A stretch of DNA of 27,948 nucleotides. Origin: a virus. Below, piece by piece: positions 10,277-27,948 of the stretch. The stretch is taken from IMG/VR virus record IMGVR_UViG_3300002835_000871, positions 1-27,948 of that record; one strand, written 5' to 3'. Within the stretch, counting starts at the first letter, position 1. Every line of letters starts with the position of its first letter. Under the pieces are notes generated by a model. It did no database searches. It worked only from the letters and a program-made list of their open reading frames with translations, and was not told the DNA's origin. A program made the position numbers and the translations under genes.

Positions 10277-10769
10277 TTGTATTTAAAGTTGTTAATTCGT
10301 AAACTAATTTGCGCTCTTTAAGCGTTGCTACAGGTATAAATTCATAAGAAGTTTTTCTAATAAATTCTACTGTGTCATCGGGAAGAATCCCTTTCTTAAT
10401 AATCACATCGTCTAGACACTTAAGCCAGACTAATGCTAAATTGCCTATATCCCAATTTGGTTTATAGCCTACAGGCGCAGGTCTCCAACTTACTTGTCGT
10501 TTACCTGTCTGCTTGTTTTGAATCATTTTCATTGCTCCGTAATTCACTGGCGCATACACAATTAGCTTTGTCTCTATCGGACCCTGAATGGTTAAATTTT
10601 CTGGTATATGTTTCTCTATGTAACCGTGCATAGCAGCCACTAGGGCTGCTCTTGTTGCAAAATGCACGGATGCATGGATTTTATTATAACCAATCTTAAC
10701 CCAAACTTTCTTACTTTGTGGTATATGCGTAATAAATTCTGGAAACTCTAATTGAAGCCTACTCACCAT
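10266..10769 (-). CDS. RusA-like Holliday junction resolvase (167 aa)
   Basis: The C-terminal half has the RusA catalytic layout: KPNWDIGNLALVWLKCLDD (103-121) with D107, N110, K117 and D120, then GILPDDTVEFIRK (127-139) with D131/D132. RusA-family enzymes are homodimeric Mg2+-dependent nucleases that cut four-way junctions symmetrically; in phages they resolve recombination or packaging intermediates. The family is usually ~120 residues; the additional N-terminal part here (LVAAMHGYIEKHIP) looks like the preceding alpha/beta region with an insertion. It overlaps the exonuclease gene, forming a recombination pair. Confidence 0.8.
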   Translation of the reverse strand: MVSRLQLEFPEFITHIPQSKKVWVKIGYNKIHASVHFATRAALVAAMHGYIEKHIPENLTIQGPIETKLIVYAPVNYGAMKMIQNKQTGKRQVSWRPAPVGYKPNWDIGNLALVWLKCLDDVIIKKGILPDDTVEFIRKTSYEFIPVATLKERKLVYELTTLNTNGL

Positions 10770-10787
10770 ATCAACCCTCCTCTTAAA

Positions 10788-11975
10788 TTAAAACCAAGAA
10801 AAATCACTCGATTCCTCTATTATTGGTTCTGTTACTACTGCTGGAGTCTCTTCCTCTTCCAATTCTATTTGTTCTACTGTCTCTACTGGTGCTGGTACAA
10901 AATCTTCCGTAATTTGATTAGAGTAGTTAGTGTTCAACAATTCTAATACTTCTGTACTCATAGTCATAGTTTTTACTCTAAAAAATCTAGTACTCCCATG
11001 TCTACTTAACTCTTCGTTATATCTGTTAATTAATATATCGAGTTTATCTTGAGTTAATACTTTTTTGTTAATTAAAGACTGAACAATATTATCTAGACTA
11101 GTATCAAGATATCTGTAATCTTTGTTTAAATAACTTAGTAAAGATCTAAAGTTGACGTGTTTTTTAGCACTGCAATTAGCAATGTTATAAGAACATTCTT
11201 TAAACAACATTTCTAGATACAACAAGCTATCAGAATAATTACAATTAGCCATAATTTCTAAAGCCAAAGTTGCATTATCATCATCGCTACTTCGTAACAT
11301 AGTTTGCAATTGATCAAATACTATTTCATCAATAATTACTGCATCATCACCATTTACATGTGCCAACAGTCCACTCTCATTATACAAAGTATTTTGAGAA
11401 ATATGATTATATAAATCATCATAATCATTTTTGACAGCAGTAACTCTTACAGAATCATTATGCTGAAATTTTAGGAGATTTTGCTGAAATTTTAAATCAG
11501 TTATACATGGTAAAACATTATCATGCCCTAATAAAACTCGTCTAGTGTTATAATCACAGTAGATATAAGGTAAATCGTAATCAGCAGCTGCTAATAGTAA
11601 TTTACTATAGTCATAAGAATCAATATCATCCTTAGCAATCTGCATAAAATTAGTTAAAGCAATTGTGTCAATTTTGTAGTACCACTGAGTTTCTCCTATC
11701 TTTCCACTTGTAGCTTTACCTGCAAAAATATGAGTAGCATCAGTTATATCCCTAACAGTTTTAATATTGTAGGTAGTAGCTAAATTTTTTAATTTAACTC
11801 TTGGGATATTTACCCCAGGAAGAAAGAATAATTTATCATTCATTCCTGGAGTATAACTTTTTTCTAATACATGGGGCTCAAAATCCTCCGCAAAAATTGT
11901 TTTAAAATTTAAATCTACTCCCATAATTTTAGAAGCATCTCCATTAAGATGGAGCTGTACATATAATATGCGCAT
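10788..11975 (-). CDS. Unknown protein with acidic C-terminal tail ending SDFSWF (395 aa)
   Basis: No known domain is recognised. The N-terminal ~180 residues look alpha/beta (MRILYVQLHLNGDASKIMG), the middle is helical with many Asn, Asp and Tyr (LALEIMANCNYSDSLLYLEM). The last 40 residues are a low-complexity acidic linker rich in E, V, P and T, ending EESSDFSWF. This tail resembles SSB-type acidic tips that recruit replication proteins, and two other proteins in the window end similarly. It lies between the resolvase and the MoxR-type ATPase, with 16 bases to the latter. Confidence 0.75.
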   Translation of the reverse strand: MRILYVQLHLNGDASKIMGVDLNFKTIFAEDFEPHVLEKSYTPGMNDKLFFLPGVNIPRVKLKNLATTYNIKTVRDITDATHIFAGKATSGKIGETQWYYKIDTIALTNFMQIAKDDIDSYDYSKLLLAAADYDLPYIYCDYNTRRVLLGHDNVLPCITDLKFQQNLLKFQHNDSVRVTAVKNDYDDLYNHISQNTLYNESGLLAHVNGDDAVIIDEIVFDQLQTMLRSSDDDNATLALEIMANCNYSDSLLYLEMLFKECSYNIANCSAKKHVNFRSLLSYLNKDYRYLDTSLDNIVQSLINKKVLTQDKLDILINRYNEELSRHGSTRFFRVKTMTMSTEVLELLNTNYSNQITEDFVPAPVETVEQIELEEEETPAVVTEPIIEESSDFSWF

Positions 11976-26565: not shown

Positions 26566-26613
26566 GATAGTTGTTTTAAGTGTTAGTAAATGATGCAAGT
26601 TATAGCATAATGT

Positions 26614-26775
26614 CTATCTACGTGCTACATCTAGTACAAAGTTGAATAGTAGCCCTACTATAGAGAACCATGTCAACATGATGCCTAAAGTAGGGGCTAA
26701 ACTATAACATAGTGTGATACCTAATCCTAATGTTAGTGCAAGGATGAAGTATATGAAGATAAATACTTGATTCAT
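26614..26775 (-). CDS. Small membrane protein (53 aa)
   Basis: ATG at 26773-26775 overlaps the stop of the upstream 60-residue gene by 4 bases (ATGA), evidence for coupling. Sequence: MNQVFIFIYFILALTLGLGI, then LGIMLTWFSIVGLLFNFVLD, ending ARR; two membrane segments. Too short for the provided length filters of many gene finders. Unknown role. Confidence 0.65.
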   Translation of the reverse strand: MNQVFIFIYFILALTLGLGITLCYSLAPTLGIMLTWFSIVGLLFNFVLDVARR

Positions 26776-26954
26776 AGTCTATGTTGTTTAGATTGATAGT
26801 CATAGTCCAGTACAGCTACTATGCCTAATGCACATGATAGGATAAATGCTATTACTGATGCTGTAGCTTCTTCGCTATTAGTTGAGATTAATAGTGAGTA
26901 AGTACTCATAAGCATGAGTATTACACTTAGGATGATAAAGAATAATTGTTTCAT
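26772..26954 (-). CDS. Small membrane protein, two TM segments (60 aa)
   Basis: MKQLFFIILSVILMLMSTYS (1-20) and ASVIAFILSCALGIVAVLDY (32-51) are two membrane segments, the loop NSEEAT being polar. Ends YQSKQHRL. It is coupled to the 53-residue gene by an ATGA overlap and preceded by a possible 22-residue peptide gene 3 bases upstream. Part of a chain of tiny membrane proteins. Confidence 0.65.
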   Translation of the reverse strand: MKQLFFIILSVILMLMSTYSLLISTNSEEATASVIAFILSCALGIVAVLDYDYQSKQHRL

Positions 26955-26957
26955 AAT

Positions 26958-27026
26958 TTATTGATTTATAATTAAATAGATAGTAAATGATAATATTACT
27001 GCGGATATAATGATGCCTAGTATCAT
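26958..27026 (-). CDS. Possible micro-peptide, single TM (22 aa)
   Basis: ATG at 27024-27026 opens 22 codons, MILGIIISAVILSFTIYLII then NQ and TAA at 26958-26960, three bases before the next ATG. The composition is a single hydrophobic helix, like its neighbours. Very short, so chance cannot be excluded. Confidence 0.4.
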   Translation of the reverse strand: MILGIIISAVILSFTIYLIINQ

Positions 27027-27039
27027 ATGTAGTAGTTTA

Positions 27040-27710
27040 AAGGTTAATAATAAATAAAAGAAAGTGATAGGACCTTACATCTATCAGATTTTATCATACG
27101 TGAGCATATAGTACATTGCCTAGGTAATACTATATTCTAAGAGGGCTAAAGGGATTTCGTTTCGCCTCACTTTACTTTCTTTTACAATATCCCTCTGCAC
27201 TCAGTTGTAATAGAGTTTCTTTAGATGTGTACTAGTAGCGTTCTTAGACTTTTAATCCTTAGACTGAGCTAACACGAGACCCTATTAAGAATATACGTCA
27301 CTATATTCTCTATTACAACTGCTCACCCTTGGGAAGTGAGAATGGTACATTAATAAGCAGTTTGTCTACATGCTCAGGTATACGACGAATATCACGTCCT
27401 TTCGTACTCTCACAAGGTTGCAATCCTTGAATGTAATAGCCTCTACATACTACTATGCTTCATATGCTACTATTATGGTATGATATCCACACGCTCAGCA
27501 TTACTGATTGTGTTTACCTGCTTGGATGAGAGTATTTATATTAAGCCATAGATTATTATATGCTATGGCTTATCACGCATTCTATGCGTTGGTGTTTACT
27601 ACCCAAGATAAGATAGTAACCACACCGTTAACTATGACTAACTTGTTCATACTTAGTGAGTTAAGTGTTAATAATAAGGTTGTATTTGTAGTACTTAGGG
27701 GTTAAAAATA
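27040..27710 (-). ncRNA. Candidate large structured noncoding RNA (~650 nt)
   Basis: No convincing protein gene is present, yet perfect inverted repeats follow each other. Listed by plus coordinates: 27065-27070/27081-27086; 27106-27112/27129-27135 with an additional 3-bp helix inside; 27140-27145/27191-27196; a 14-bp pair 27202-27215/27308-27321 enclosing an 8-bp hairpin 27288-27295/27302-27309; 27322-27326/27336-27340; 27413-27417/27425-27429; a 10-bp hairpin 27542-27551/27563-27572; 27575-27580/27584-27589; and an 11-bp helix with a 2-base bulge 27591-27601/27614-27626. The last three abut. In minus orientation it begins right after the terminator at 27704-27730 and ends with a hairpin followed by CTTTCTTTTATTTATT, like a terminator. 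Not recognised as RNase P, tmRNA, 6S or a group I intron. Strand and RNA nature are inferred. Confidence 0.55.
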
Positions 27711-27730
27711 CCCCCCGAAGGGGGCATTGA
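27704..27730 (-). terminator. Strong UUCG-loop terminator after the right-edge gene
   Basis: Minus-strand CCCCC-UUCG-GGGGG (5 bp, stable UUCG tetraloop; plus coordinates 27711-27724) followed by GUAUUUUUAA. It lies a few bases downstream of the stop codon at 27731-27733, so the right-edge gene is insulated from the region beyond. Confidence 0.85.
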
Positions 27731-27948
27731 TTACCACGCTAACAGCACTCGTTTACCTTTGGCAATCGACCATGGTCCATTAGGTCCATCCTCGCCACTT
27801 GCGTCACGCTGTGCCTCGAACTCACCCGCAGTGAACGTATAGTTTACGTCACTGGTGTCGTGTCCTGCATCGATAGTAGATTGTCTCACTCGGATATAAT
27901 ATCCGTCGATGAGAAACGTTCTATCGTCTACGACTGTTGCATCGGACG
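27731..27948 (-). CDS. C-terminal part of a higher-GC gene (71 aa, partial at edge)
   Basis: Open to the window edge, with TAA at 27731-27733. The visible tail includes DDRTFLIDGYYIRVRQSTID, SDVNYTFTAGEFEAQRDASG and WSIAKGKRVLLAW; beta-rich, polar, no family recognised. It uses CGT, GAC, ACG and GGA codons and is close to 50% GC, against about one-third in the rest of the window. It ends in a GC-rich terminator. It may be an acquired gene or the edge of another genome module. Confidence 0.75.
   Translation of the reverse strand, partial: SDATVVDDRTFLIDGYYIRVRQSTIDAGHDTSDVNYTFTAGEFEAQRDASGEDGPNGPWSIAKGKRVLLAW

Follow-up and report, generated by a model that had tools for sequence, protein, structure and literature searches.

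The window analyzed here (W; the whole stretch of DNA under study) is a 27,948-bp IMG/VR virus record that comes from an environmental metagenome and belongs to a crAss-like phage; its DNA polymerase was closest to those of a Leptolyngbya phage and many crAss-like phages (35-48% amino acid identity). Close to the end of this record, the minus strand carries, in order, a terminator, a 22-codon micro-ORF, two hairpins, module A, module C, module B and a 3' module. The intrinsic terminator (CCCCC-UUC-GGGGG followed by a U-rich stretch; 27704-27725, minus strand) lies behind the upstream ORF at 27731-27946 and forms the border of the region, which confirmed the strong upstream terminator noted in a preliminary description of this DNA; it is GC-rich, and similar terminators were present in relatives. 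The micro-ORF (MNKLVIVNGVVTILSWVVNTNA; 27582-27650, minus strand) had 10 distinct homologues, which showed 130 synonymous and 247 non-synonymous codon differences in its frame, compared with 58/336 and 31/367 in the other two frames. Because the synonymous excess appeared in one frame only, we took 27582-27650 as a conserved ORF. Thus, the region was not gene-free as first described, and the 11-bp bulged stem that had been counted among its RNA helices sits inside this coding frame. Homologues of the micro-ORF were observed in L002-L011, L045 and L051, with the pattern M-x3-[IV]-[IV]-[IV]-[DN]-G-V-[VIL]-T...W-[VI]-V-N-[TP]-N-A, and its position was between the terminator on one side and the RNA modules on the other. 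Directly 3' of the micro-ORF are two hairpins (27542-27589, minus strand), one at 27575-27589 that overlaps its stop codon and one at 27542-27572 that had been recognized before and was recovered here; comparable hairpins occur in relatives. A 65-codon plus-strand ORF (27508-27705) is antisense to the micro-ORF and the hairpins.

The remainder of the region is made up of four minus-strand modules: module A (128 nt; 27406-27533), module C (50 nt; 27355-27404), which contains the small hairpins ACG-UGAUAUU-CGU and GAGCA..UGCUU and was present in 17 of the regions of 133 relatives, module B (160 nt; 27190-27349) and the 3' module (27052-27184). The last of these has an 11-bp perfect terminal helix (27055-27065/27174-27184) and a U-rich end, in agreement with the downstream hairpin and U-rich tail proposed previously, and its interior partly resembled that of three other loci. 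Folding of the 696-nt minus strand yielded -186.5 kcal/mol (z -4.5), whereas its 20 shuffles averaged -155 and none of them was as low. The plus strand (z -3.6) was also below every shuffle, which showed that the region folds beyond chance. Module A adopted the same shape when folded alone or within the whole region. Instead of the single multi-branch fold suggested in the preliminary description, we found separable modules with their own borders: in relatives, A, B, C and other modules were independently gained, lost and rearranged, were set among small genes and, in most cases, continued with no intervening terminator into the leader of the gene that follows. An Rfam search, which had been proposed together with the shuffle test, detected no family at its threshold, and no relative of A or B was found there at threshold either. 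Several candidate identities were also rejected. The sarcin-ricin-like string AGTACGAAAGGAC at the A/C border occurred, among the first loci, only in W and L002, and was judged a chance match since it consists of the end of the closing helix of A and the start of C. The tRNA D-arm-like string TAGCTCAGT in the B insert was negative by both ARAGORN and shape search, and an rsmX match at 27705-27813 (24.8 bits, with a cut-off of 56) lay mostly inside the upstream ORF.

To obtain relatives, the neighboring 210-residue gene was used as an entry, which led to 12 viral loci, most of them with the same RNA region; comparison of these loci revealed that the ends were constant and the middles differed. 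Pattern scans of the module ends in IMG/VR detected at least 119 stretches with A and at least 119 with B, in phages of up to 123 kb. The B end was present in 18 of 24 large contigs, with one or two copies in a single place, and in large contigs A and B modules formed one cluster per genome. The idea that carriers are only PolA-type crAss relatives was not retained: that polymerase type, which the window has, was found in 4 of 24 large contigs, and a terminase related to that of crAss001 in 24 of 25 (some only 22-26% identical). A scan of bacterial genomes from 84,980 species gave two matches, neither of which was a clear chromosomal member of the families. L244, a chromosomal stretch of Herpetosiphon, lacked the rest of B and was judged a chance match; L245, a 4.6-kb MAG contig in which B is cut by the contig end, is probably phage. 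No convincing match to the modules was found in GenBank phages and plasmids, and a limited literature search revealed no description of A and B or of the tRNA-shaped RNAs discussed below.

We then compared the structures of A and B across the family. In the window, module A consists of the closing helix ACUCUCA/UGAGAGU, the strand CCAAGCAGG, a variable insert and the hairpin CAAGG-AUUGCAA-CCUUG, with GCA (27519-27521) able to pair with the loop UGC (27420-27422); the family has the same closing helix, the strand CCAA(UU)GCAGG, the insert and the hairpin CAAGG-RUUGCAA-CCUUG. Both-sided changes in the closing helix (P1) exceeded those of all 2000 shuffles and were far above slid controls. The predicted pseudoknot, in which the 5' strand pairs with the loop of the hairpin, was paired in 92% of cells at three pairs, and five cells showed both-sided changes (shuffled mean 1.0; reached by 2 of 2000 shuffles), for example UUGUA with UACAG and UA with UAGAA.

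Module B of the window comprises P1 (UGUAC/GUGCA), P2 (CUCAC-UUCCCAAGG-GUGAG) and a third stem, P3, around the variable insert. P3 is the 14-bp helix noted in the preliminary description, whose arms (27202-27215/27308-27321) do exist and are 100% complementary. The tail is GAGGGA, of which GGGA is able to pair with UCCC in the loop as a pseudoknot. The order of the family is P1 (UGCAC/GUGCA), P2 with the loop UUCCCAAGG, a C, P3 (AGUUGUAAU/AUUACAACU, which holds the insert), GA, P1' and, last, the tail GAGGG. Across the 95 distinct cores, pairing was observed in 97-100% of cells for P1, for P2 and for pairs 1-7 of P3. The cells with both-sided changes numbered 18, 105 and 43 for P1, P2 and P3, compared with shuffled means of 2.3, 27 and 4.6, respectively; none of the 2000 shuffles reached these counts, and pairing was lost when the partner was slid. 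A second covariation run, on 20 full B elements, agreed with this result for P1-P3. A covariance model of B assigned 80.5 bits to the window, which was among its 20 training sequences, and detected divergent copies as low as 28 bits. Since the loop and tail of B are almost invariant, ordinary covariation is silent for the pseudoknot, and rare variants are informative. The loop UUCAC co-occurred with the tail GAGUG (L223, L369) and the loop UUUUA with the tail AAUGG (L008), pairs being kept in each case; in L009, UUCCU and GGGA occur together in a shifted register. The loop has been lost in L201 and L268, and in these two the 5' flank becomes the partner of the tail (6-7 pairs), a pairing with 0 pairs in 127 of 134 normal B elements.

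An R-scape-style tree-based null found no significant pair in A or B (best E 0.09); its power was low, since the positions of P2 change together and the 59 columns under test also supplied the tree. Covariation was observed against shuffled and slid controls and not under the tree null, and the structural case for A and B draws on three lines: the shuffled controls, the slid controls and the rare variants with compensation. It is well supported that A and B are two new RNA families, each with a closing helix, a pseudoknotted hairpin loop and a variable insert. The original proposal of a new conserved structured phage RNA was therefore borne out, with compensatory changes and no Rfam match, and that of a single large ornate RNA was not.

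The inserts were highly diverse. Among the matches listed, the 111 distinct A inserts fell into 44 clusters and the 141 distinct B inserts into 112 sequence clusters. Folded alone, they gained only modestly over shuffles (mean z -1.1 for A and -0.9 for B), so some inserts could be neutral extensions. On the other hand, two A insert families each showed both-sided changes at 5 of 14 predicted pairs, suggesting that at least those inserts are selected structures. L006 and L007, read by eye, were very similar around the modules and had unrelated B inserts. Empty sites, in which relatives with the same flanks had the module present or absent at identical borders, were found for both B (L102 and L080 versus L044; L098 versus L138; L043 versus L079; L009 versus L007) and A (L080 versus L079; L056 versus L007). 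The A modules of the window and of L109 shared 94.5% identity over 128 nt, and the terminases of the phages of L002 (a close relative of the window) and L109 were 24.7% identical. We take this match across distant phages as apparent module exchange, the alternative being an extreme conservation of that insert type. Movement of the same insert between frames was considered and not adopted: the copies checked of one A insert type were all in frame A, and apparent matches between A and B inserts were mostly overlapping elements.

Several other recurrent motifs besides A, B and C were observed in the spacers of 133 non-redundant intervals: CTATCCAGTAAG; ACCACAAGGTTTCAGGCATAA followed by GGTTGACTTGTGGT, immediately 5' of A; CTTATAGAAACTT, after B; and TTTATATAGCTAAC, upstream of A. 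In addition, hatchet ribozymes (82 bits) were detected upstream of module A in the same intervals at L102:10327-10463 and L098:2899-3036 (minus strand), which provides a natural phage context for this ribozyme class. They were found in 2 of 12 loci, and none reached the gathering threshold in 12 other loci. Although hatchets share these intervals, A and B do not match the hatchet model (RF02678), which had no match in the window or in the compact A and B of L069.

Based on these observations, the minus strand is best explained as a series of RNA modules that fold autonomously and occupy the spacers of a phage gene cluster, in which each A or B frame surrounds one exchangeable, often structured insert. 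The modules would be transcribed together with the flanking genes, and the frames might stabilize or release the inserts. The inserts could bind a fast-changing host partner, such as a defence protein, a nuclease or an RNA, and the array might then serve as a swappable set of RNA decoys or inhibitors. As regards structure and evolution, this explanation appears very likely to be correct. A decoy or binder role, although the most likely function of the inserts, is proposed only tentatively; it is suggested by four features that together resemble those of host-conflict genes: the frame is constant, the structured insert changes, each genome has a single locus and lineages swap the modules. The explanation as a whole, with exchangeable folding modules and a decoy repertoire, is our preferred one and is offered with caution. 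The position of the modules suggests that the RNA is carried on operon mRNA: 131 of 159 intervals were flanked by same-strand ORFs, and the closeness of B to start codons and the scarcity of terminators after it, described below, point the same way. In 65 of 73 loci with at least two elements, all elements shared a strand; weak A matches, considered noise, are among the eight exceptions.

Almost as likely as the decoy function, and itself a tentative reading, is a role in cis, in which the frames would punctuate or protect the mRNA as roadblocks, processing sites or leader caps and the inserts would be tolerated extensions. In 58 of 137 cases, no more than 90 nt separated the end of B from an ATG; B was often located 30-60 nt 5' of the ATG, with varied downstream genes. 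A terminator was present within 120 nt after B in 5% of cases, compared with 18% after long ORFs, so transcripts do not usually end at B; this scarcity fits cis-acting elements as well as trans-acting RNAs. The hatchets upstream of A in the same intervals of L102 and L098 would also agree with such a role. However, it leaves unexplained why the inserts are hypervariable yet internally structured, and why the modules are confined to one locus per genome.

It is rather unlikely that A and B are domains, some of them optional, of a single large ornate RNA of the GOLLD/ROOL type. GOLLD and ROOL often lie near tRNA islands and form a homo-oligomeric RNA cage; here, a tRNA was found within 400 nt of only 3 of 262 A/B elements. 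Neither Rfam model gave a hit at the gathering threshold, nor, over 26600-27948, one at E<=5. In GOLLD, the 3' part is conserved and the 5' part less so, and tRNAs are sometimes present in its linker (PMC12286853). A and B resemble these RNAs in being structured phage noncoding RNAs, but differ from them in that the modules can be separated, measure about 50-250 nt and carry hypervariable inserts; regarding contiguity, judged here from sequence, the modules are independent and lie among small ORFs. A large RNA would be consistent with the usual location of A 5' of B (53 of 84 neighboring pairs), with gene-free intervals of 962 nt in median (counting ORFs of at least 80 codons; smaller genes occur inside) and with the single locus per genome, whereas small ORFs between the modules, the absence, repetition or reversed order of either module and the lack of a common end or terminator argue against it.

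Two further possibilities were considered. Selfish mobile elements (non-autonomous transposons or mobile ribozymes, with the conserved ends serving insertion) could account for the precise empty sites in AT-rich linkers and the three copies in a row in L008, but are very unlikely, given the single locus per genome without dispersed copies, the lack of a constant target-site duplication in the listed empty sites and the compensatory changes that indicate selection on RNA structure. Small ribozymes typically combine conserved unpaired loops, pseudoknots and free variation in one stem, as A and B do, and hatchets share the intervals at two loci; even so, new self-cleaving ribozymes with variable stems are highly improbable, as neither module resembled any Rfam ribozyme model, no cleavage site could be recognized from sequence and other loci had no hatchet at the gathering threshold. 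Among other known classes, ARAGORN found no tRNA or tmRNA in the window and the shape search was negative in the region; group I/II introns had no Rfam match in the window or 24 relatives, the modules being located in spacers; and riboswitches had no Rfam match, with downstream genes belonging to many unrelated clusters.

Two partial analogies remain. The exonuclease-resistant RNA of flaviviruses is built on a three-way junction in which a hairpin loop pairs with the strand that directly follows the closing helix. B resembles it in the junction and the loop pairing (at the sequence level, compared via Rfam only), but its looped hairpin is the first branch and not the second. Engineered tRNA scaffolds for RNA display use a rigid constant frame to present an arbitrary RNA insert; A and B likewise combine a constant frame with an insert, but are natural and not tRNA-shaped. 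Separately, we observed tRNA-shaped RNAs in which a variable insert takes the place of the anticodon arm, in other phages of up to 270 kb and in a few A/B phages. Those with an AGTCAGG-type acceptor numbered 113 in 88 loci, with 111 distinct inserts (e.g. L242:6157-6266, minus strand; L130:10463-10572 and 10703-10797, plus strand; L009 at 7859; L264; L270; and about 80 more loci). They have the acceptor AGTCAGG/CCTGACT, a Leu-like D arm and a normal T arm followed by AC, not an encoded CCA, are 77-276 nt in total length and occur up to eight times per genome. The motif was present in only 2 of 25 large A/B contigs, and these RNAs thus form a separate class, possibly a more striking one than A and B. 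Their occurrence suggests a wider use of the design in which a constant frame carries a variable insert. The broadest version of our preferred explanation, a somewhat doubtful one at present, would be a natural RNA display, in which pseudoknotted frames are swapped as cassettes and their inserts bind or inhibit host factors in trans, with a parallel tRNA-shaped frame elsewhere.

If the modules are RNA effectors, a large and fast-evolving class would have been overlooked, since gene callers and Rfam are blind to such RNAs; phage counter-defence has been studied mostly via proteins. Even as cis elements, A and B would represent two RNA families that are both new and abundant, and their well-defined pseudoknots and naturally occurring sequence swaps would suit them to structural work and to tests of RNA-domain exchange among phages.
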